Assembly (NCBI GenBank): GCA_029553475.1
Contig: JAKPKV010000068.1
Coordinates: 1 to 53,725, forward strand
Direction of reading: 5' to 3'
Origin: Armatimonadota bacterium
Lineage (GTDB): Bacteria > Armatimonadota > Hebobacteria > CAIYQO01
Length of the DNA stretch: 53,725 nucleotides
Shown: positions 4,656 to 52,728 of the stretch, piece after piece
How the letters are laid out: every line of letters begins with the position of its first letter
Position numbering within the stretch: position 1 is the first letter of the stretch
Notes under the pieces: generated by a model
Seen by the model: the letters and a program-made list of their open reading frames with translations, nothing else
Database searches by the model: none
Told to the model about the DNA's origin: nothing
Translations under genes and position numbers: made by a program

Positions 4656-6281
4656 ATGACTGCTACCGCGACCCGGACCTTTCGCGTCCTCGTGAGCGAT
4701 CCCGTCTCCGCAGACGGGCTCCGCGCCCTCCTCGACGACCCGGCCATCGAGGTGGTCGTCAAGACTGACTACACCCCGGACGAGCTGGCCGCCGCCATCG
4801 GTGATTTTGACGGGCTGGTGGTGCGCAGCCAGACGAAAGTCACCGCCGCTGTGCTGGAGCAGGCCGCTACGCTGAAAGTCATTGGCCGTGCCGGGGTGGG
4901 CGTGGACAACGTGGACGTGCCCGCCGCCACCCGCAAAGGCGTGGTGGTGCTGAACTCCCCCGAAGGCAACACCATGGCCGCCACCGAGCACACCTGGGCG
5001 CTGCTGCTCGCGCTGGCGCGCAAGGTCTGCCCTGCCGACGCCTCCATGCGCGCCGGGCAATGGGACCGGAAAAGCTTCACCGGCACCGAGTTGTATGGGA
5101 AAACCCTCGGTGTCATCGGCCTGGGCAAGATCGGCGGCGCCGTCGCCCGCCGCGGCCAGGGGTTTGAGATGGACGTCATCGCGTATGACCCGTTCGTCAC
5201 CCAGGAGCACGCCGCGCGGCTGGGCCTGCGCCTGGTGAGCGTGGATGAGCTGCTGCGCGCGGCGGATTTCGTCACCATCCACGTGCCGAAGACGAAAGAC
5301 ACCGCCGACATGATTCACGCCGAGCGGTTGGCGATGATGAAGCCCACCGCCCGCCTCATCAACTGTGCCCGCGGCGGCGTGGTGAACGAGGCCGCGCTGG
5401 CGGAGGCCGTGCTGAACGGCACCATCGCCGGCGCCGCGGTGGACGTCTATGCCGCCGAACCGCCGGCGGCGGACAACCCGCTGGTGCGCGCCGCGCAGTC
5501 CGGCCGCGCGAATCTGCTGCTCACCCCGCATCTGGGTGCCTCCACCGAAGAAGCGCAGATCAAGGTGGCCGTAGACGTCGCCGAGCAGATTCGCGATTAT
5601 TTCCACGGCATTCCCGCGCGTAGCGCGGTGAATATGCCCGCGCTGCCCGCCGAGCTCATCGCGCGCCTGCAGCCCTATATGACGCTGCTGGAAAAGATGG
5701 GCAAATTCCACGGGCAGCTCACCGACGGCGCGGTGCAGTCGGTTGAGGTCGTCTACAGCGGTGCGATCACCGACGAGAACACCTCTCCGCTCATCCCCGC
5801 CTTCCTGCAGGGGCTGTTCGCGCCCATCCTCGGCGCCGGCATGATCAACTCGGTGAATGCCCGCTTCACCGCCGAGCAGCGCGGCGTGGAGATCAAAGAG
5901 GTGAAGAGCACCGAGTCCTCCGGTTACGAAACGCTCGTCACCACCATCGTGCGCACGGAGATGGGCGAACACCGGCTGGAAGGCACCCTCTTCGGTAAGG
6001 GCAACGCCCGCATCACGCGCGTGGACCAATACTGGGTGGAGATGGCGCCCGAGGGGCAGTTCATCATCGCCTACCACACCGACAAGCCCGGCATCATCGG
6101 CGCCGTCGGGCAGATCCTCGGCGCGCACGACATCAACATCGCCGGCATGCAGGTGGGCCGCGTGCATCCGCGGGGCATCGCGGTGATGGTCCTCGCCGTG
6201 GACGAGCACCCGCCCGACAAGGTGCTGGAGAAGATTCGCGGCATCGAGGGGGTGGGGGATACGCGGTTAGTAGAGCTGTAG
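4656..6281 (+). CDS. serA: D-3-phosphoglycerate dehydrogenase
   Basis: The 541-aa enzyme oxidises 3-phosphoglycerate to 3-phosphohydroxypyruvate, the entry to serine synthesis. The NAD-binding fold has LGVIGLGKIGGAVA, the catalytic Arg lies in NCARGGVVNEAAL, and the catalytic His in LTPHLGASTEEAQ. The length matches the long bacterial type with an intervening domain and a C-terminal ACT domain (FIIAYHTDKPGIIGAVGQIL), which in other species gives serine feedback. The start has an AAAGGAG ribosome site. With cysE just upstream it makes a serine-to-cysteine pair, now split by the inserted GxxExxY cassette. Confidence 0.96.
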   Translation: MTATATRTFRVLVSDPVSADGLRALLDDPAIEVVVKTDYTPDELAAAIGDFDGLVVRSQTKVTAAVLEQAATLKVIGRAGVGVDNVDVPAATRKGVVVLNSPEGNTMAATEHTWALLLALARKVCPADASMRAGQWDRKSFTGTELYGKTLGVIGLGKIGGAVARRGQGFEMDVIAYDPFVTQEHAARLGLRLVSVDELLRAADFVTIHVPKTKDTADMIHAERLAMMKPTARLINCARGGVVNEAALAEAVLNGTIAGAAVDVYAAEPPAADNPLVRAAQSGRANLLLTPHLGASTEEAQIKVAVDVAEQIRDYFHGIPARSAVNMPALPAELIARLQPYMTLLEKMGKFHGQLTDGAVQSVEVVYSGAITDENTSPLIPAFLQGLFAPILGAGMINSVNARFTAEQRGVEIKEVKSTESSGYETLVTTIVRTEMGEHRLEGTLFGKGNARITRVDQYWVEMAPEGQFIIAYHTDKPGIIGAVGQILGAHDINIAGMQVGRVHPRGIAVMVLAVDEHPPDKVLEKIRGIEGVGDTRLVEL

Positions 6282-6308: not shown

Positions 6309-6648
6309 AGCTACTGTGGCCGCGGAGTTGTACTCCGCAGTTACCGGGCCTGGCCGCCGGCACAGCCGCGACGATGCTCCGGGCGGGCGATCCCGATGCC
6401 ATCGGGACGACTCCGGGAGGAAATGATCGTCTGTCGTGTTCGATAGTGAGACTCTCTCGTGCACACGACGGATAAAACTTCCTCCCGGAGTCGGCTCGCG
6501 GGGACGCTCGCCCGCCCATTCGCTCGCCCGCGCCCGTTTCGTACAGAAAAGCTGACAGACGCTCTCCACCGCAGTACAATCCAAACAGGCTCCCCCCGCC
6601 GCGAGTGCTACTCTACCTGACAAGCACACCGTAAGGAGGGAAACGATA
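6309..6648. repeat. Intergenic block with a 137-bp palindromic repeat (copy A)
   Basis: This gene-free stretch begins with a short palindrome, GCGGAGTTGTACTCCGC (near 6322-6338), also found at 33.5 kb. It then holds an imperfect palindrome at 6381-6517 that starts GGGCGGGCGA and ends CGCTCGCCCGCCC. The second half folds back on the first through CTCCGGGAGGAA and TTCCTCCCGGAG. A related inverted copy lies at 14392-14525. No reading frame in the block looks coding. The last bases carry the AAGGAGG ribosome site of the TPR gene. Confidence 0.7.
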
Positions 6649-14391: not shown

Positions 14392-14525
14392 GGGCGGGCG
14401 AGCGTCCCCGCGAGCCGACTCCGGGCGGAAGTCTTATCCGTCGTGCTCACGAGATAGTCAATCTATCGAACACGGCATACCATCACTTCCGCCCGGAGTC
14501 AGCTCGCGGGGACGCTCGCCCGCCC
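14392..14525. repeat. 134-bp palindromic repeat (copy B)
   Basis: This begins GGGCGGGCGAGCGTCCCCGC and ends with its complement. Inside are CTCCGGGCGGAA and TTCCGCCCGGAG. It is the inverted relative of copy A at 6381-6517: the reverse complement of B follows A closely over the last 110 bp or so. It fills the gap between the DUF2905 start region and the galK stop. Confidence 0.75.
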
Positions 14526-14529
14526 GCTG

Positions 14530-15696
14530 TCACACGAGATGCTCCAGCTCGACTTCCTCCGCGCCGGCGCTGGCCTGGCACACGTAGATCTGCGGATGGA
14601 GGCCGGTGGCGGTTGTATAGGCGGGACCGACGGCAGCGACGAACGCCTCGGCGTGTTCCTTGGCGACGAGGCTGACGGTGCAGCCGCCGAAGCCGGCGCC
14701 GGTCATGCGCGAGCCGTAGACGCCGGGCTGGCGGCGGGCAATCTCCACCAGCGCATCGAGTTCAGGACAACTCACCGCATAATCGCCGCGCAGGCTGTCG
14801 TGCGATGCGTTGAGCAGGCGGCCGAGTTCAGGCAAATCACCGGCGGCCATCGCCTTCACTGCCTGCAGCACGCGCGCGTTTTCGCTGACGACATGGCGGC
14901 AACGGCGGTAGACGATCTCGGGCAACAGGTCGCGATGCGCCTCCAATTGCGTGGGCAGCACGTCGCGCAAGGCATTGATGCCGGGCAGCACTTTTTCCAG
15001 GATGGCGACGCCCGCTTCGCACTGCTCGCGACGCTCATTGTAGGCGGACTCGACCAACCCCCGGCGGACCCCGGTGTCACCGATGACGATGCGCACGCCG
15101 GCGGGGATGGGATACGGCTGATAGTCCAGTGTGCGGCAGTCAATGAGCAGGGCGTGGCCGGGTTGGCCCAGCACGGAGATGAACTGATCCATGATGCCGC
15201 AGCGATTGCCCACGAACGCGTTTTCCGCGCGCTGGCACAGGCGGGCGATCTCCGGCCCCGGCACGTCATATTCCGCCAGGGTGAGGAAGGCGAGGGCGGC
15301 GGCGACTTCCAGCGCGGCGGAAGAGCTCAGGCCGGAGCCGATGGGCACATCGCCGGCGAAGACGATATCGGCTCCGCGCAGATGATAGTCAGCTTCTTCG
15401 AGGACGTAGCAGACGCCACGCAGGTAATTGCTCCATGATTCAGCGGTATCGTAGCCGATTTCGTCGAGCGAGAAGGCGGAGTAGCCGTCACAATCGAGCG
15501 CGTGGAGGGTCACGTCGCGCGCCCGGCCGGGGCGGGCGGCGAGGAGCACCTCGCGGTCAATGGCGGCGGGCAGCACGAAGCCATCATTGTAATCGGTGTG
15601 CTCGCCGATGAGGTTCACGCGGCCCGGCGCGCGGAACAGGCGGTATTCGCCGTCCAGCTCGGCGCTGATGCGGGTTAGAAAACCTTCGATCTCCAT
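14530..15696 (-). CDS. galK: Galactokinase
   Basis: The 388-aa enzyme phosphorylates D-galactose at C1 in the Leloir pathway. Signatures are present in order: the galactokinase box FRAPGRVNLIGEHTDYNDGF, the GHMP ATP loop DVPIGSGLSSSAALEVAAAL, CGIMDQFISVLG with the catalytic Asp, and SRMTGAGFGGCTVSLV. I prefer the ATG at 15696, which follows a GGGAG site; an ATG at 15711 is also in frame. Either way the gene overlaps the 3' end of tilS by about 20-40 bp. The GH27-like gene elsewhere in the window could supply galactose. Confidence 0.96.
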   Translation of the reverse strand: MEIEGFLTRISAELDGEYRLFRAPGRVNLIGEHTDYNDGFVLPAAIDREVLLAARPGRARDVTLHALDCDGYSAFSLDEIGYDTAESWSNYLRGVCYVLEEADYHLRGADIVFAGDVPIGSGLSSSAALEVAAALAFLTLAEYDVPGPEIARLCQRAENAFVGNRCGIMDQFISVLGQPGHALLIDCRTLDYQPYPIPAGVRIVIGDTGVRRGLVESAYNERREQCEAGVAILEKVLPGINALRDVLPTQLEAHRDLLPEIVYRRCRHVVSENARVLQAVKAMAAGDLPELGRLLNASHDSLRGDYAVSCPELDALVEIARRQPGVYGSRMTGAGFGGCTVSLVAKEHAEAFVAAVGPAYTTATGLHPQIYVCQASAGAEEVELEHLV

Positions 15697-19407: not shown

Positions 19408-20751
19408 TTACCGCGCGGGCGCGGCCGGCCGCATGGCGGCGCCCTGGGCGCTGAAGGGGCCGCGTGCGACGGCGGTTGCCAGCGCGAGGTGGGCGCGTTT
19501 GACCAGCACGTCAGCCATGGCGCCGTCCATGGGGAACACGGCATAGCCAATGGTGATTTCCACGGGCTCCGGCTGATCGGCGAAGGGCGCCCGATCCCGC
19601 CGAGACGCGGTCTGGCAGAGCCGTTCGCCGAGGACGCGGGCTTCGCGGCCGGTGTGCGGCAGCAACAGGCCGAAGGTGCCGTCACCCAGGTACCCGATGA
19701 GATCCACCACGCGGGTGCTGTCGCGCAGCCAGCGTCCGATGCCGGTCAGCAGGAGGCGGTCGTCCTCGCGATCTTTCACATGGATGAGCATCAGGGTGAA
19801 GTTCGTGGGGTAGCGCTGGCTGCGCGCGATTTCTTCCTTCACGCGCAGGTGAATATACATGCCGGAATGTACGCCGGTGAAGGCGTCGAACGTGGGGATA
19901 TCGGCGGGGATGCCGGATGATGCGGGTTCGTGTCCCTGCGCTTTCACCTCGGCCTGTTCTTCCAGGGTCGTTTTAATCTTCGCGATGGCGCGGCGCAGCA
20001 AATAGGAGGCGTAATTGACGGAGATGCCAAGCTGGCGGGCGATCTCCGTCTGGGTCTGGTCATCGAAGAAATAGTGTCGCACCACCTTCTGCTCAAGGAT
20101 TTTCAACTGGCTGATGGCATCTTCAAGGACGATTTGATCCTCGATGGGCAGGTGATAGCTTTCGGTGTTCATGGGCTGGGCTTGCTCTTTTTCGAGCAGG
20201 CTGATATCGCCATCGCTCGCCCCATCAGTCGGGGGACTGAGCGATGCCACGTGATTCAGCTCTCGGGCGGCGAGCACGTTATGCACCGACTGCAGCGGGA
20301 CGCCGAGCAGGTCGGCGATTTCTTCCGGCATCGGTTCGCGGCCAAGCTCCTGCGTGAGCTGCTCGGTGGCGCGCAGCACCTTCGCGTTGAGTTCCTGGAC
20401 CCAGGCCGGCTGGCGGATGAGGCGTCCACGGTCGCGCAGGTAGTGTTGAATCTGGCTGGTGATGAGGTGGCTGGCGTAGGTGGTGAATTTCACGCCGCGT
20501 TCAGGATCGAACAGGTCCACGGCGTTCAGCAGGCCGATGGTGCCTTCCTGGATCAGGTCTTCCAACGATTCTCCCAGGCCGCTGAAGCGCCGGGTGAGGC
20601 TGTGGACCAGATGGAGGTGTTGGCAGACGAGCTGGTCACGCACCGCCACCTCTCGACTCTGACGATATTGCCGGAAACGCGCCAGCATGTCGCCGGCGTC
20701 GCCCGCGGGCGCAGACGCGTCTTCCTGGTTCGCAAGCGGATGGTATGTCAT
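19408..20751 (-). CDS. Sigma-70 family sigma factor fused to a degenerate GGDEF-like domain
   Basis: This is a 447-aa protein. Residues about 35-110 are sigma region 2 (SLEDLIQEGTIGLLNAVDLF, FDPERGVKFTTYASHLI, RGRLIRQP). Residues 120-170 resemble region 3, and 205-262 region 4 with the helix-turn-helix TQTEIARQLGISVNYASYLL. After a linker, residues 288-435 follow the diguanylate-cyclase fold: DAFTGVHSGMYIHLRVKEEI in place of the DxLTGL opening, LGDGTFGLLLP (355-365) in place of GGDEF, and ITIGYAVFP then KRAHLALATA at the end. GGDEF is changed to LGDGT, so catalysis is unlikely; it may bind a nucleotide. The ATG overlaps the stop of pilC by 1 bp (TGATG), so the two are translated together. Confidence 0.85.
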   Translation of the reverse strand: MTYHPLANQEDASAPAGDAGDMLARFRQYRQSREVAVRDQLVCQHLHLVHSLTRRFSGLGESLEDLIQEGTIGLLNAVDLFDPERGVKFTTYASHLITSQIQHYLRDRGRLIRQPAWVQELNAKVLRATEQLTQELGREPMPEEIADLLGVPLQSVHNVLAARELNHVASLSPPTDGASDGDISLLEKEQAQPMNTESYHLPIEDQIVLEDAISQLKILEQKVVRHYFFDDQTQTEIARQLGISVNYASYLLRRAIAKIKTTLEEQAEVKAQGHEPASSGIPADIPTFDAFTGVHSGMYIHLRVKEEIARSQRYPTNFTLMLIHVKDREDDRLLLTGIGRWLRDSTRVVDLIGYLGDGTFGLLLPHTGREARVLGERLCQTASRRDRAPFADQPEPVEITIGYAVFPMDGAMADVLVKRAHLALATAVARGPFSAQGAAMRPAAPAR

Positions 20752-33484: not shown

Positions 33485-33582
33485 ACCGGGGCCGCGGAGT
33501 TGTACTCCGCACGAGTGACCTCACCCTGTCGTTGAACAAAGAGCGTGTAAACTCGTGCGGAGTGCAACTCCGCGGCCCCGGT
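33485..33582. repeat. 32-bp inverted repeat enclosing 34 bp
   Basis: ACCGGGGCCGCGGAGTTGTA at 33485 and the complement at 33551-33582 pair with one mismatch over 32 bp. Each arm contains the smaller palindrome GCGGAGTTGTACTCCGC, also present near 6322. Confidence 0.75.
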
Positions 33583-35413: not shown

Positions 35414-35479
35414 CTGGGAGCGCCGGTGTCCTCACCGGCACGGGAACTGTCTTGCCGGTGAGGACACCGGCGCTCCCAG
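35414..35479. repeat. Perfect 27-bp inverted repeat after pyrD
   Basis: CTGGGAGCGCCGGTGTCCTC continues to form a 27-bp arm (35414-35440) with an exact complement at 35453-35479 and a 12-nt loop. It begins 3 bp after the pyrD stop. The arm also contains the smaller CCGGTGNNNTCACCGG fold. Confidence 0.85.
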
Positions 35480-35523: not shown

Positions 35524-35600
35524 TGGTCGGGGTGAGAGGATTTGAACCTCCGGCCTCACGGACCCGAACCGTGCACTCTACCAAGCTGAGCTACACCCCG
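35524..35600 (-). tRNA. tRNA-Pro (anticodon CGG)
   Basis: On the minus strand the acceptor stem CGGGGTG pairs with CACCCCG. The D arm GTAGCTCAGCTTGGTAGAG is present, and the anticodon stem CACGG/CCGTG encloses the loop TTCGGGT, giving anticodon CGG. The T arm has GAGGTTCAAATCCTC. The discriminator is A and the CCA end is encoded (35524-35526). Confidence 0.96.
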
Positions 35601-47254: not shown

Positions 47255-47850
47255 TCAATACCTGATGACTGCCAAGCAAACAGACGTATTTTTTGCGGTC
47301 GACACCTCCCCCACCGGCTGGTTGTTCGCATTATACGTTGGCACCTGCACATCGCGGACGGTGGTGGGATTGCCGGCCGCGTCATACGCATAGGTATCGG
47401 TATAGCCTCCGAGCCGTTCGGATACCTCCTGCACAAGCTGCCGTTTGTGATCGTACGAGTAACTGGTTACCCCGCTGAAGGCCGGCAAGCCCGGCACCAC
47501 CGCTCGGAGCTGCGTGCAATCGTCCAACGCGGAGTAGACTAGATCCTGGAAGTCAGAGTGCACGCGCCCTTTGGGATCATAATTCACCAGGCGCGCGTAC
47601 CGTCCCGCGGCATCGTAGGTATAGGTGGTCCAGGCGCGATTGCCCAGCACCTGTCTCCGCACTCCCTGCGCGTCATAGTGCCAGACCGTCGTTTTGCCGA
47701 ACGGATTCGTCAGAGTGGCGAGTTGTCCATCCGCATGGTACGTATACGAAAACGTGCCGAGCCCGCCGCCCGGAACGGGGACCGTCATGGTCGCCCGCTG
47801 CCCATCCGGGTAGTAGGTATAGCTGATCGGCGCGAAACAGAGCGCGGCGG
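47255..47850 (-). pseudogene. Rhs/YD-repeat mid-body fragment
   Basis: The minus frame reads YTYYPDGQRAT, then TFSYTYHADGQLATLTNPFG, VWHYDAQGVRR, TTYTYDAAGRYARLVNYDPK, SYSYDHKRQLVQEVSERLGG and TDTYAYDAAGNPTTVRDVQV. These are typical YD repeats from the shell of an Rhs protein. There is no real start (the ATG at 47788 is internal to a repeat) and the frame stops after a non-Rhs tail (CLAVIRY). It therefore represents a cut-out piece of a larger gene. It lies downstream, in the reading direction, of the toxin tips. Confidence 0.85.
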
Positions 47851-47918: not shown

Positions 47919-47999
47919 TGTAAGCTCCGATGATGACCGTGTCAAAGATTCTCTTCGTTTTTCATCTTGGCGATTAAAGTCAACATGGATTCTTATCAT
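47919..47999 (-). pseudogene. Internally deleted copy of the 78-aa candidate immunity gene
   Basis: From the ATG at 47999 it reads MIRIHVDFNRQDEK, matching the start of the gene at 52492-52728 (MIRIYADFNNMDD). It then jumps to the 3' end: 38 bp at 47921-47958 are identical to 52471-52508, which hold the stop region of that gene. The middle is missing and the frame is lost. It begins 10 bp after the stop of the tip-3 frame, the same spacing as in the intact pair. Confidence 0.8.
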
Positions 48000-48009
48000 A
48001 CTCTGTTCC

Positions 48010-48387
48010 TCACTGTACTTGTGCGGGATTACGTATCACAAAAAACTGTGCGCTGATGAGCAATGATTGTAACTCAGTCATAGGTGTCGAGATCGACACG
48101 TCACAGTGATACAGTGAGTAAGTGCTTGGGGTAGAAATAACACGGATACCTCCAGGAAATATTAGCTGTATCTCGCCTAGAATACGTAGCTTAGATACAG
48201 TACTGACGCTTATCTTCGGATTTCGAAACCGACCAGAAGCCGCAAGTTCTTCAATTGCTTTGTACGGGACTGACTGTACCGAGAATCCATACAATCCAGT
48301 CTGATCATTATAGGTTGTTCCTATAATCAGATGAAGAACGGCTTTATGCTGGAGTAATGAGACCTTATCCTTCACATTCTGGCTCAC
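48010..48387 (-). pseudogene. Orphan Rhs toxin-tip domain, copy 3 (YGFSVQS family)
   Basis: About 115 residues align with the other two copies: IIGTTYNDQTGLYGFSVQSV, then ELAASGRFRNPKISVSTVSK, FPGGIRVISTPS, YHCDVSISTPMTELQSLLIS and RNPAQVQ at the end. It has no Rhs core before it; its frame begins inside the end of the neighbouring candidate immunity gene. The domain itself is open and complete, so it is a displaced tip rather than a decayed one. I do not recognise the family. Confidence 0.7.
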
Positions 48388-48916
48388 TCCCCTGCTGATC
48401 TACACTGACCGTCGTGGAGACATATTGCCGAAATAACTGCGCGTGCTCCTGACTCATTACGGGCTGGCGGTAATATCGTGGGAGTACACGGATAAAGGGC
48501 TCGATAGCGGGGAGCGGAATGTGATGCTTCTCCAGGATGGCGATCGCTTTTTCAAAGCACTCTTCGCTAGCATCATAACCACTAGCCCCCCAACTTGATG
48601 CCGTAATTTCGACACAATATTCTAATAATATCTCAAAATCTTTCTTCACATCTTGTGGTAGCTCCTCTAGTAGACCTTCCGGATACATCCCATCCATCGG
48701 GTCAATTTTTTCACGATGAAACCCCGCTTCCCAATCATCCCATTGTTCAGGTGAGTTATCCATGGTTAGACATGTCCAGGCATGGGCTATAATCGCCTCG
48801 AGTTCTGGATGATGGATATGATGGCGTTGGCAGAAACGTTCAGCCCCGATGAAGGCAATAAGCATTTTCCCTTCTTCGGAAAGCCGAGAACGCAACTCGG
48901 GTGTATAGTAATCCAT
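48365..48916 (-). CDS. Candidate immunity protein, third tandem paralogue
   Basis: The 183-aa soluble acidic protein starts at MDYYTPELRSRLSEEGKM after GAGGA. It is homologous along its whole length to the two genes before it: AFIGAERFCQRHHIHHPELE, WTCLTMDNS, AGFHREKIDPMDGMYPE, EKAIAILEKHHIPLPAIEPF and IRVLPRYYRQPVMSQEHAQL. It is the most divergent of the three, with SSWGASGYDASEE replacing VGWGGEAYERSER. Its end overlaps the tip-3 frame by about 23 bp. Position after an Rhs toxin tip and tandem copying suggest immunity; the family is unknown to me. Confidence 0.7.
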   Translation of the reverse strand: MDYYTPELRSRLSEEGKMLIAFIGAERFCQRHHIHHPELEAIIAHAWTCLTMDNSPEQWDDWEAGFHREKIDPMDGMYPEGLLEELPQDVKKDFEILLEYCVEITASSWGASGYDASEECFEKAIAILEKHHIPLPAIEPFIRVLPRYYRQPVMSQEHAQLFRQYVSTTVSVDQQGSEPECEG

Positions 48917-48935
48917 GACATTCCTCATCTTTCGT

Positions 48936-49478
48936 CTATTGTGGCTCACACCCCTGCTGATCTGCACTGACCGTCGTGGAGACATATTGCCGAAATAACT
49001 GCGCGTGCTCTTGACTCATCACTGGCTGGCGGTAATATCGTGGGAGCACGCGGATAAAGGGCTCGATAGCGGGGAGCGGAATGTGATGCTCCTCCAGGAT
49101 GGCGATCACTTTTTCAAAATGCCGTTCACTCCGCTCGTAAGCTTCTCCCCCCCAACCCACTGCCGTTATTTCTACACAGTGTGTTAATAGATATTGGAGA
49201 TCGCCCTTAATGTTTTCTGGTAAGCATTGCAGTAAATCAATCGGAAATACATGGTACATTGGATCGATGTCATCACGATGAAATCCTTCTTCCCAAGCAT
49301 CCCATTGTGCAGATGAGCTATCCATGGTCAGGCATGTCCAGGTATGGTCAATAAGCGCGTCAAGCTCGGGGTGATGGATCTGCTGTTGCTGGCAGAAGCG
49401 CTCGACTCCGATGAAGGCGATGAGCATCTTCCCCTCTGCTGAAAGACGCGCGCGTAACTCGGGTGTATAGTAATCCAT
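48936..49478 (-). CDS. Candidate immunity protein, second tandem paralogue
   Basis: The 180-aa protein starts at MDYYTPELRARLSAEGKM. It is close to the first copy over most of its length (LIAFIGVERFCQQQQIHHPE, TAVGWGGEAYERSERHFEK) but differs in the middle (MYHVFPIDLLQCLPENIKGD). The difference is clustered rather than even, as expected if that surface sets partner specificity. The gene is one unit of a tandem repeat with a period of about 560 bp. Confidence 0.7.
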   Translation of the reverse strand: MDYYTPELRARLSAEGKMLIAFIGVERFCQQQQIHHPELDALIDHTWTCLTMDSSSAQWDAWEEGFHRDDIDPMYHVFPIDLLQCLPENIKGDLQYLLTHCVEITAVGWGGEAYERSERHFEKVIAILEEHHIPLPAIEPFIRVLPRYYRQPVMSQEHAQLFRQYVSTTVSADQQGCEPQ

Positions 49479-49497
49479 GACATTCCTCACCTTTCAT

Positions 49498-50049
49498 CTA
49501 CTGTGGCTCACACCCCTGCTGATCTGCGCTGACCGTCGTGGAGACATATTGCCGAAAGTCCTGGGCCTGCTCCGCGCTCATCACTGGCCGATGTTTTCGG
49601 TAGTAATATCGTGGGAGCACGCGGATAAAGGGCTCGATATCAGGGAGTGGGATGTGATGCTTCTCCAGGATGGCGATCGCTTTTTCAAAATGCCGTTCAC
49701 TTCGCTCATAAGCTTCTCCCCCCCAACCCACTGCCGTTATTTCTACACAGTGGTTTAATAAATTTTCCAGATCAATCTTACTGTCTTCCGGCATGGATTG
49801 TAGAAAATCGTCAGGATATACATCGTCCATTGGGTCAATTTTTTCACGATGAAACCCCGCTTCCCAAGCATCCCATTGTTCAGATGAGTTACCCATAGTC
49901 AGGCATGTCCAAGCGTGATTAATGAGCGCGTCAAGTTCTGAGTGATGGATCTGCTGTTGTTGACAGAAGCGTTCAACCCCGATGAAGGCGATGAGCATCT
50001 TCCCGTCTGCTGAAAGACGCGCGCGTAACTCGGGTGTATAATACCCCAT
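49498..50049 (-). CDS. Candidate immunity protein, first tandem paralogue (next to the deaminase toxin)
   Basis: The 183-aa protein starts at MGYYTPELRARLSADGKM. It is the first gene after the Rhs-deaminase frame, 115 bp behind its stop, and so the best candidate for its cognate immunity protein. It is predicted soluble and acidic, with no signal peptide. It has a three-residue insertion (YYYRKHRPVM) near the C-terminus compared with its two neighbours. No known immunity family is recognised. Confidence 0.72.
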   Translation of the reverse strand: MGYYTPELRARLSADGKMLIAFIGVERFCQQQQIHHSELDALINHAWTCLTMGNSSEQWDAWEAGFHREKIDPMDDVYPDDFLQSMPEDSKIDLENLLNHCVEITAVGWGGEAYERSERHFEKAIAILEKHHIPLPDIEPFIRVLPRYYYRKHRPVMSAEQAQDFRQYVSTTVSADQQGCEPQ

Positions 50050-50164: not shown

Positions 50165-51526
50165 TTATTCGGGATAAGTACGATACTCTATACCGAAGTA
50201 ATCAAGTACGATTCGGCATAATTCACACGGTTCTTTCGATTCACCATATTCAGCTTTTCCAGGTTTTCGAACATACATGGTATAAATATGTGCCCCCCTC
50301 AACTCATCCAGCACCACTCCGCCAGCAGCCTTTATTTTCCGTATCATCTCATTAATCGCTATAATTTCAGCACACTTTCCCCAATAACCTTGCTCTTCAT
50401 CCCACTCCGGACTATCAAGTAACTGTTGTTTAGCCATTGCGACTACGGGTGCCAACTCTGGCTCATACGTAACCTGCTCAAAGTCCTTCAAGCTTTTTCC
50501 ATATGCAAACCTACCTGTCGGCGTAACTAATTGAGCCACCATATTGGGTCGAGTGCTATTAGTCGTAGTCTGATAGATATAATCGGCATATCTTAGTAAA
50601 CCGTATTTATTGTTCTGATACAGCATGAACTCAGATATATCATTAAAAAAGTAACGACCAAAATTTAGCCAATCATAGTATATAGAGATTTTTATATTGT
50701 CAGGTATAGGCAACGCCTCAATATATGGCGGCAAATACGGCTTCAGGAATTCTGGCGTTTCTTGACTCGCAAATATTGTCAACGAACATGGCCCTATCGC
50801 TAGGCATACGGTTACACGCTCACTAAAAGGATTAAATGGCCGCTGTGGCCCAAGAATAACGGGCGGTTTCGCTATGCGGAACGGATCATTGTCGGGATTG
50901 AAATTCGGATTGTTAATCCCGAAATCCTTTTCCATGGCATACACCATACACCGTGGGCGATTATACAACATGCCATAGGATTCACCCGCGTAATATACAG
51001 TCATCGGCAGCAGTAATATCTCTGCCGATGTCAGCGTCACTGTCGTCGTGATACCTGGCATCGGGATACAATTTGATATCCCCGGGCCAATACGCGTTCC
51101 TGGAACGAATGGGTCTTTAATCTGGTTGACATTCGGGATGCCTGGTTTGAACGGCCCAACGGGTGGTCTGTAGGTTGGTGTCGTCCACAACCCTTGCGGG
51201 TCAATATAATTCACCGGATTATTCAAACAATAGACATAGAGGTTCACGCCTCCTCGATAGCCAATCGGATCGCGCGTCAGCCAGCGCCCTGTACGCGGAT
51301 CATAGTAGCGCAACGTGCAGAGAACCAATCCGGTCTCATGATCCGTATAGTACCCAAACTGGCCTTTATAGCCATACGGATCAGCGGCAGGATTTCCCGC
51401 CAGGCGCTTTCCGTAGGCGTCGTAGAGATCAGATGAGCGGATATCACCTTTCGCGTCGAGTCGGTGGAGCACATTGCCTTGCAGATCGAATTGGTACCAG
51501 GTCGCATTCCGCGCGAGTAGTCCGCC
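50165..51526 (-). CDS. Rhs core fragment with C-terminal deaminase-type toxin (YwqJ-like)
   Basis: The frame is open from a stop at 51527-51529; no true start is seen. GTG at 51472 would give 435 aa. Residues 1-94 are the end of an Rhs core: WYQFDLQGNVLHRLDAKGD (just upstream), GQFGYYTDHETGLVLCTLRY, YDPRTGRWLTRDPIGYRGGV, NLYVYCLNNPVNYIDPQG. After the DPQG boundary comes a 340-residue tip. Its last 70 residues have C367-A-E369 and, 46 residues later, P-C416-E-L-C419, the zinc-site pattern of the cytidine-deaminase superfamily. YwqJ-type toxins use C-A-E in place of H-A-E. The tip is AT-rich compared with the core. A short core fragment plus tip plus immunity gene is the known form of a displaced, orphan Rhs module. 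Confidence 0.82.
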   Translation of the reverse strand, partial: GGLLARNATWYQFDLQGNVLHRLDAKGDIRSSDLYDAYGKRLAGNPAADPYGYKGQFGYYTDHETGLVLCTLRYYDPRTGRWLTRDPIGYRGGVNLYVYCLNNPVNYIDPQGLWTTPTYRPPVGPFKPGIPNVNQIKDPFVPGTRIGPGISNCIPMPGITTTVTLTSAEILLLPMTVYYAGESYGMLYNRPRCMVYAMEKDFGINNPNFNPDNDPFRIAKPPVILGPQRPFNPFSERVTVCLAIGPCSLTIFASQETPEFLKPYLPPYIEALPIPDNIKISIYYDWLNFGRYFFNDISEFMLYQNNKYGLLRYADYIYQTTTNSTRPNMVAQLVTPTGRFAYGKSLKDFEQVTYEPELAPVVAMAKQQLLDSPEWDEEQGYWGKCAEIIAINEMIRKIKAAGGVVLDELRGAHIYTMYVRKPGKAEYGESKEPCELCRIVLDYFGIEYRTYPE

Positions 51527-51921: not shown

Positions 51922-52399
51922 ATCAGTATCGGTGTCTTCATCACTAGTTGCTCTTCCCAACGGCTTTTTTCCGTTGCATGCATCTGGGGATGGATCTGCA
52001 GGCGATCCAACACGCTGCGCATCCCCCAATAGGTATACGACACGCCGAACGTATCACGAACCCACCGACGGACCTCATCGATATGCCGAGAGCGTGGCAA
52101 CCCGCTTCCGCCACGATGCGGGCTTCCTGGGCAGGCATCAAGCGCCGGGCAGGGCCGGTCCCGCCGCTCCGATGGCCGACGACGGCGGTCACCCCTCCGG
52201 TGCGGTACCAATTGAGCCAGGTCTGTACCGTGGAGGGATGCGCGCCGACGAGCGCGGCCACTTCATCACGGGTACGCCCTCCCTGGCGTAAGAGCCACAG
52301 CGCATGGAGACGCACCTTCAGGGGGCCTTCCTGCTTCGTGCGATAGAAATATCCGAGTTCATCAGCACTATGCTGCCACTCGACTTGCAAAGTGTGCAT
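51909..52399 (-). pseudogene. IS630-like transposase N-terminal fragment, frameshifted
   Basis: The first frame has a helix-turn-helix of the IS630 type (GRTRDEVAALVGAHPSTVQT, then WLNWYRTGGVTAVVGHRSGG). After a frameshift near 52.10 kb a second frame continues DEVRRWVRDTFGVSYTYWGM and RSVLDRLQI, the winged-helix part. The DDE catalytic domain is missing. The fragment separates the 78-aa candidate immunity gene from tip copy 2, so an insertion followed by deletion probably destroyed the core of that second copy. Confidence 0.8.
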
Positions 52400-52491
52400 T
52401 ACCTCTTACCTAGCGAACATGAGTTTGAGATGCACATTTTATCAGGTCGCGTCGGTGTTCACAACTAGTATAAGCTCCGATGATGACCGTG

Positions 52492-52728
52492 TCAAAGATT
52501 CTCTTCGTCATAATAGTGTAGCGTATCCATATCTGGTATTGCTCTCCAGACTCGATCAAAGACTAGTGTCCCAACAACTTCGAACTCATCGGGAACATAT
52601 AGTAGAACCTTCTTACCTTCAACCACTTCATCCTTATGTTTTTCGATATCTTTAAGTGATCCCGGAATATGGAGATACACTCTACCAAAATCATCCATGT
52701 TATTAAAGTCAGCATAGATTCTGATCAC
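52492..52728 (-). CDS. Small candidate immunity protein paired with the YGFSVQS tip
   Basis: The 78-aa protein reads MIRIYADFNNMDDFGRVYLH, then KKVLLYVPDEFEVVGTLVFD and ends DTLHYYDEENL. It is soluble and very acidic. Its ATG lies 10 bp after the stop of tip copy 1. A deleted copy of the same gene lies 10 bp after tip copy 3, so tip and small gene were duplicated together. This linkage is the main reason to call it immunity. No known family is recognised. Base composition is lower in GC than the core genome. Confidence 0.68.
   Translation of the reverse strand: MIRIYADFNNMDDFGRVYLHIPGSLKDIEKHKDEVVEGKKVLLYVPDEFEVVGTLVFDRVWRAIPDMDTLHYYDEENL

Follow-up and report, generated by a model that had tools for sequence, protein, structure and literature searches.

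A REPIN-like family of palindromic repeats and its REP-type arm in Armatimonadota

The palindromic repeat found twice in the window (the whole 53,725-nt stretch of DNA analysed here) is very probably, as judged from its sequence, a REPIN/BIME-type non-autonomous repeat in which two inverted REP hairpins enclose a palindromic spacer, and it is probably mobile. The REP unit that forms its arms lies outside the GT(A/G)G and CGTC types and is without a linked RAYT. The repeat behaves as a REPIN would, and it is classed here with neither the GTAG nor the CGTC REPs.

Copies in the window and in the genome

The window is one complete contig of a 5.27 Mb Armatimonadota draft genome (G000; 194 contigs). 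An earlier note on this DNA had placed palindromes at 6381-6517 and 14392-14525; both locations were confirmed and the stem strings quoted for them are exact. Their parts and neighbouring genes are as follows.

6381..6517, + strand: copy A of the REP doublet, 137 nt; a mosaic of type 2 left arm and type 1 right arm
6381..6408, + strand: left arm of copy A, type 2 (GGGCGGGCGATCCCGATGCCATCGGGAC), a small hairpin by itself
6409..6492, + strand: palindromic spacer of copy A, GACTCCGGGAGGAA ... TTCCTCCCGGAGTC plus apex
6493..6517, - strand: right arm of copy A, REP unit type 1 (GGGCGGGCGAGCGTCCCCGCGAGCC)
14392..14525, - strand: copy B of the REP doublet, 134 nt; both arms REP type 1
14392..14416, + strand: REP unit type 1 of copy B
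14417..14500, - strand: palindromic spacer of copy B
14501..14525, - strand: REP unit type 1 of copy B, matched by the pattern with one mismatch
4656..6281, + strand: D-3-phosphoglycerate dehydrogenase gene; stop 99 bp before the start of copy A
14530..15696, - strand: galactokinase-type GHMP kinase gene; stop 4 bp from the start of copy B

Copy A (+) and copy B (-) are 83% identical overall, and their ungapped match is limited to 110 nt (88% identity) because the two copies have different modules as their left arms. DNA folding of each copy was far below dinucleotide shuffles (z of -8.2 for A and -14 for B), with single-stranded fold energies of -49.3 kcal/mol against -26 in shuffles, and of -65.1 and -68.3 against -26 to -28 kcal/mol. 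These 134-137 nt doublets can fold into a single long DNA hairpin or into a pair of short hairpins connected by a loop. A further REP-like repeat, GCCGCGGAGTTG(T/C)ACTCCGC, is located a little to the left of copy A (6313-6339) and again at 33485-33582, and was counted at 24 places in 1.19 Mb of G000. At least eight more families of short repeats, the majority showing inverted symmetry, occur in the same 1.19 Mb, including GTAGTCCGCGCCCTCCGCGG (21 places), GGGACAGTCCC types (57) and GCGGACA..TGTCCGC (15); the genome is rich in REP-like repeats.

The likeness of copies A and B is not due to chance, because the palindrome occupies 53 distinct places in G000 and more in another genome of the same genus (G001). 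These places, on 31 contigs, correspond to 103 strand-wise matches of a covariance model that was built from 41 copies and applied at E <= 0.001 (150 of 6168 first-look candidates scored), and 48 of them are 100-160 nt long. In G001 the palindrome is likewise multi-copy (63 BLAST rows, both strands counted). The earlier suggestion of a dispersed REP-like family, with copies beyond the first two, is therefore borne out by the 53 places, their intergenic position and their build as inverted doublets. Neither the palindrome nor its arm was found in the third genome of the family and order (G002). When the exact 33-base arm pattern was searched in GTDB r220, a search that may leave out G000 itself, a single named genome was returned, MAG UR.bin144 (= G001), with 17 stretches. 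Viral contigs gave 0 matches to an exact arm pattern, and so no candidate vector.

Counts out of 54 refer to a set of copies obtained from 65 rows minus 11 chance matches, and pairing was analysed in alignment A2, which comprises 41 copies and omits nine with a type 2 arm and four with an apex insertion, duplication or deletion. Each palindrome is a doublet, i.e. two inverted REP-like hairpins of about 25 nt around a genus-specific and itself palindromic spacer. The outer 25 nt read GGGCGGGCGAGCGTCC(C/T)CGCGAGCC, followed by GACTCCGGGNGGAAGT, the apex, and then the inverse. Three kinds of outer arm occur: type 1 is the 25-nt sequence just given; type 2 forms exactly one arm in 9/54 copies, copy A included; and type 3 (GGGCGGGCGAGACTCCGTCGAGCC) forms both arms in 3/54 copies (L150, L158 and L163). 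A 37-bp palindrome that stands solo in G000 (C186:871-907) has the type 2 arm as one of its halves. Solo arms, truncated or half elements and apex duplications are present in G000 as well, with tandem duplications of the apex at C40:53907 and C77:4143 and a recurrent 52-bp deletion form at C156:29749 and C151:67669. In six elements a GTAG-type REP pair lies at or beside the apex, three of them in G000 (C2:52871-53137, C186:284674 and C141:8688) and three in G001 (two on C76, one on C265); the elements at C186:284674 and C141:8688 lack one arm. The position of these pairs suggests that the palindrome may open into hairpins in the cell.

The arm as a REP unit

The arm pattern was scanned, allowing up to two mismatches, in 291 Armatimonadota genomes. 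Matches occurred in 10 of them: 52+52 in G000, 20+21 in G001, 74+64 in G176, 20+25 in G104, 7+8 in G175, 6+7 in G105, and single matches in four further genomes. As a control, the pattern read backwards gave 1 match across the 291 genomes. The REP unit is common to five Armatimonadota families. In the other families the arm stands alone as GGGAGGGCGAGCGTCC(C/T)CGCGAGCC with the head GGGA, at up to 138 matches per genome (G176); the sequences flanking it vary by place, one place being a 38-bp tandem array. In G175 the unit is part of a 129-bp arrangement made up of a single REP, a spacer of unrelated sequence and two REPs in inverted orientation. Based on the solitary arms of other families and the G175 doublets with their unrelated spacer, what is shared is the REP, and the spacer is particular to the genus.

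The arm hairpin reads GGGCG-GGC-GA-GCG-loop-CGC-GA-GCC. Its general form is GGC-GA-N3-loop-N3-GA-GCC, in which the upper stem varies by compensation, being complementary in 31/59 motif matches within 1.19 Mb, where 10 would be expected with shuffled partners. The upper stems GCG/CGC, GAC/GTC, GTG/CAC and GAG/CTC were found in G000, and GGC/GCC in other families. Below the upper stem a tandem G.A/A.G mismatch is kept; its constancy in the motif search is by design, since the GA anchors are part of the search motif, and in alignment A2 each of the four mismatch bases is kept in at least 39/41 copies. DNA folding of isolated units returned the expected hairpin for the GGGA form and for reverse strands, and other small structures for some variants. 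As in REPINs and BIMEs, two inverted REP units and their spacer are able to form one hairpin, the unit is an imperfect palindrome that also exists outside the doublet, and the copies are many and extragenic with a bias to gene 3' ends.

Ends, gene context and stem changes

A pyrimidine is located just outside 102/108 ends, before GGGCGGG, and 48/54 copies lie at a Y|R step. Among the 65 rows, which include the 11 false matches dropped later, no length from 2 to 11 bp stood out as a target duplication, although old copies could have lost one; nor was a TA duplication, as in IS630-type elements, seen in the end bases. A palindromic extension into the flanks, noted by eye at L016, L029 and L010, was set aside because the Y|R bias covers the observed excess (first base complementary in 30/65, 26 expected). 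Around the site of copy A, G001 lacks a copy and carries other sequence; around that of copy B, G002 lacks a copy and carries an extra gene. Neither is a clean empty site, because the sequence differences go beyond the missing copy. Copy-less neighbourhoods, Y|R ends and the lack of a target duplication would fit mobility and are compatible with it, short of proof.

A dedicated transposase next to a copy, which the earlier note had suggested looking for since such families are often moved by one, was not found at the 40 Y1_Tnp genes inspected up to 1.5 kb on each side (10 in G000, 5 in G001 and 25 in six other arm-bearing genomes; the count leaves out two genes of G002, which is without the arm) nor among the listed G000 arms. 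Within 1.5 kb of these genes, in the eight arm-bearing draft genomes, an arm hairpin was present at 3/40, none a convincing flanking pair, against a chance expectation of 1.5-2 by our own estimate from arm counts. Candidates for a RAYT beside a copy were rejected at three Y1 genes of G000 (L052, L054 and L058), where the repeats are other REPs, and at L200 of G001, where the copy is placed at the stop codon of the next gene and the Y1 gene is flanked by different repeats of its own. L052 and L054 (G000 C159 and C105) carry AGCCACGGGTGGAGCG repeats on their flanks and look like ordinary REP-RAYT pairs. In a quick tree, one Y1 clade was represented in five arm-bearing genomes (L057 of G000, and G104, G105, G176 and G225) and absent from G002; an arm hairpin lies within reach of 1/8 members, 1.3 kb away, and the clade is a lead only for the mobiliser.

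The statement that the window holds no transposase has to be qualified. The ORF at 51944-52399 (-) has an HTH_29 domain, which is typical of IS630-type transposases; this ORF shows no apparent connection with the palindrome. A 38-bp sequence also occurs twice as an exact direct repeat (47921-47958 and 52471-52508, 4.5 kb apart), the second copy near that ORF, and the two are perhaps an IS630-type remnant.

A classical MITE, whose arms would be terminal inverted repeats cut by the DDE transposase of a lost or unseen autonomous element, is an unlikely explanation. The long, near-perfect inverted ends, the sharp boundaries and the length of 132-138 nt in most copies would suit it. Against it stand the target duplication that was not detected, the finding that no arm pair surrounds a transposase of the families searched in G000 among the matches listed (100 of 112 arm matches, with the surroundings of the solo arms), and the existence of the arm as a solitary unit in other families or beside a spacer of unrelated sequence, for which the terminal repeats of one transposon would not account.

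Gene context was determined with a simple codon-usage gene caller written for this analysis rather than a published one. At a coding fraction of 0.83, 53/54 copies were intergenic. The gene end faced is a 3' end on 60 of their sides, at a median distance of 30.5 bp, and a 5' end on 44, at a median of 125 bp. The gaps with copies were -- in 17 cases, +- in 15, ++ in 12 and -+ in 7, with two unclassed, while background gaps of at least 150 bp numbered 131 ++, 97 --, 96 -+ and 43 +-; convergent gaps therefore make up 15/51 of the classed copy gaps and 43/367 of the background.

The compensatory changes read earlier from two copies extend to the larger alignment. In A2, 96.6% of cells pair; 14/47 pairs change on both sides, against 5.6 in shuffles, and 51 cells do so, against 16.6, neither value being reached in any of 500 shuffles. 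Five pairs and 15 cells of these two-sided changes belong to one block, the type 3 arm, which changed as a whole on both sides in three copies, and ten cells belong to pair 35/102. The strongest single pairs were 29/108 (38/41 against 25.4 expected) and 17/120 (34/41 against 22.8). Pair 35/102 (A2 columns), the very one quoted as compensatory in the earlier note, turned out to be the least paired: it is hypervariable, with 396 of 10,000 shuffles scoring as high, and is the weakest evidence in the stem because it is Watson-Crick in only 17/39 copies (11.5 expected). Mismatched cells outside this pair were G.U in 31 cases and A.C in 31. As a one-strand RNA should favour G.U, this equality is as expected of a DNA-level or strand-symmetric process.

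Quasi-palindrome correction, in which one arm is copied onto the other, yields a compensatory pattern as well. The covariation is compatible with selection or with arm-to-arm copying, and the data do not separate the two. Of the earlier reading that the fold, as DNA or RNA, is under selection, the compensation is real; selection on a folded form does not follow from it, since copying gives the same pattern, and a one-strand RNA is disfavoured.

Even less probable than the MITE is that selection maintains every copy in its place as a functional RNA, a terminator or a structure of the mRNA 3' end. Location a few bp behind stop codons, the excess of convergent gaps and the covariation would all be expected of it, and some copies are perhaps used as terminators. 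As an account of the family it meets the equal numbers of G.U and A.C cells, an orientation relative to codirectional genes of 15 with and 14 against, 7/51 classed copies between divergent genes, and Rfam 15, which at the gathering threshold matches only a tRNA in the window; moreover, an ancestral RNA would not give about 50 copies at unrelated places in one genus and none in the next. Most improbable is a by-product of DNA repair, by template switching and arm-against-arm correction with no enzyme recognition, which would account for the type 3 blocks, the apex duplications and the deletion forms and would leave unexplained some 50 copies with fixed ends, the Y|R preference and a REP unit common to five families.

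Proposed mode of spread and related repeats

Under the preferred REPIN-type explanation, the doublet would spread as a non-autonomous mobile element. It would fold when single-stranded, a strand-cutting enzyme acting in trans would recognize the bulged REP hairpins, and this enzyme would cut at the flanking pyrimidine-purine step and join the element elsewhere; a HUH (Y1) transposase in trans would be the first candidate. The REP arms would be the recognition unit, which would explain their conservation and exchangeability alongside spacers that differ from genus to genus. The bias to 3' ends may reflect where insertions are tolerated, and some copies may serve as terminators or as protectors of mRNA 3' ends. 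Counting against this explanation are the missing GT(A/G)G head and CGTC tag, the lack of a linked RAYT, the two neighbourhoods that are not clean empty sites, covariation that arm-to-arm copying could also produce, and the absence of the exact arm pattern from viral contigs.

More tentatively, and with rather less than even confidence, the arm may represent a third class of REP in at least five Armatimonadota families. In such a class the fixed tandem G.A/A.G bulge and the compensating upper stem, not a GTAG or CGTC head, would be recognized; movement between Y|R steps would be carried out by a trans enzyme not located beside its REPs; spacers would be replaceable, one per genus; and the apex would be a landing place for GTAG REPs.

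In the published description of REPINs, two inverted REPs flank a spacer that forms a hairpin; compensatory changes are common in them, and REPs standing alone are regarded as their remnants (PMC3116915). The Armatimonadota repeat resembles the REPINs of P. fluorescens and others, as presented there, in its inverted doublet, pairing spacer, compensation, solo and decayed copies and extragenic location; it differs in its head, GGGC or GGGA (GGCG or GGAG next to the stem) in place of GT(A/G)G, in a spacer that is well conserved in the genus, and in that no RAYT is convincingly beside the doublet. A GT(A/G)G head defines GTAG-type REPs (PMC2817692), and the activity of E. coli TnpAREP is reported to need GTAG and a mismatch or bulge in the REP stem (PMC8266576). 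No such head was observed in the arm, which begins with GGGC in this genus and with GGGA or TGGA in other families.

CGTC-tagged REPs are likewise mostly inverted dimers behind genes and, in the account given of them, have no dedicated transposase; whether they move, and by what, is stated there as open (PMC3733652). That account gives them stems of 8-9 bp that begin with AT pairs, and a CCA tail (PMC3733652); the Armatimonadota arm has neither, and its sequences carry no CGTC (TGTC, CCTC) end tag. The same source places conv-REPs less than 20 bp from ORF 3' ends, and the location of the Armatimonadota doublets behind stop codons is the pattern reported there for REPs (PMC3733652). Long palindromes of Anabaena variabilis that host GTAG-15 dimers (PMC3733652) are comparable in having GTAG-type pairs inside the apex, as at C2:52871-53137 of G000 and on C76 and C265 of G001; in contrast, most Armatimonadota palindromes are free of such dimers and the palindrome itself is a REP doublet.

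In a search of the open-licence literature by title and abstract, no paper on REPINs or palindromic repeats in Armatimonadota was found. REPs have been described mainly from Proteobacteria. ERIC and similar sequences are enterobacterial palindromes of about 127 bp; the Armatimonadota repeat is like them in length, intergenic place and imperfect palindromy. The present family offers a phylum-level case: one REP unit occurs with different spacers by family, its stem varies by compensation and its bulge is kept. Rules of recognition can thereby be tested, and the list of candidate enzymes is short.

Several other features of the window were recorded. A perfect 27-bp inverted repeat with a 12-nt loop (35414-35479), perhaps a terminator, is located between the dihydroorotate dehydrogenase gene and a tRNA gene (35527-35600). 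Three near-tandem units of about 562 bp, 73-94% alike and with ORFs lacking a Pfam match, occupy 48376-49902 (-) between an RHS-repeat ORF (47255-47788) and a YwqJ-deaminase ORF (50165-51472); the region resembles an RHS/polymorphic toxin locus whose repeated genes may be immunity genes. The 447-aa protein encoded at 19408-20751 (-) combines Sigma-70 regions 2, 3 and 4 with GGDEF, and is a sigma factor fused to a diguanylate-cyclase-type domain.
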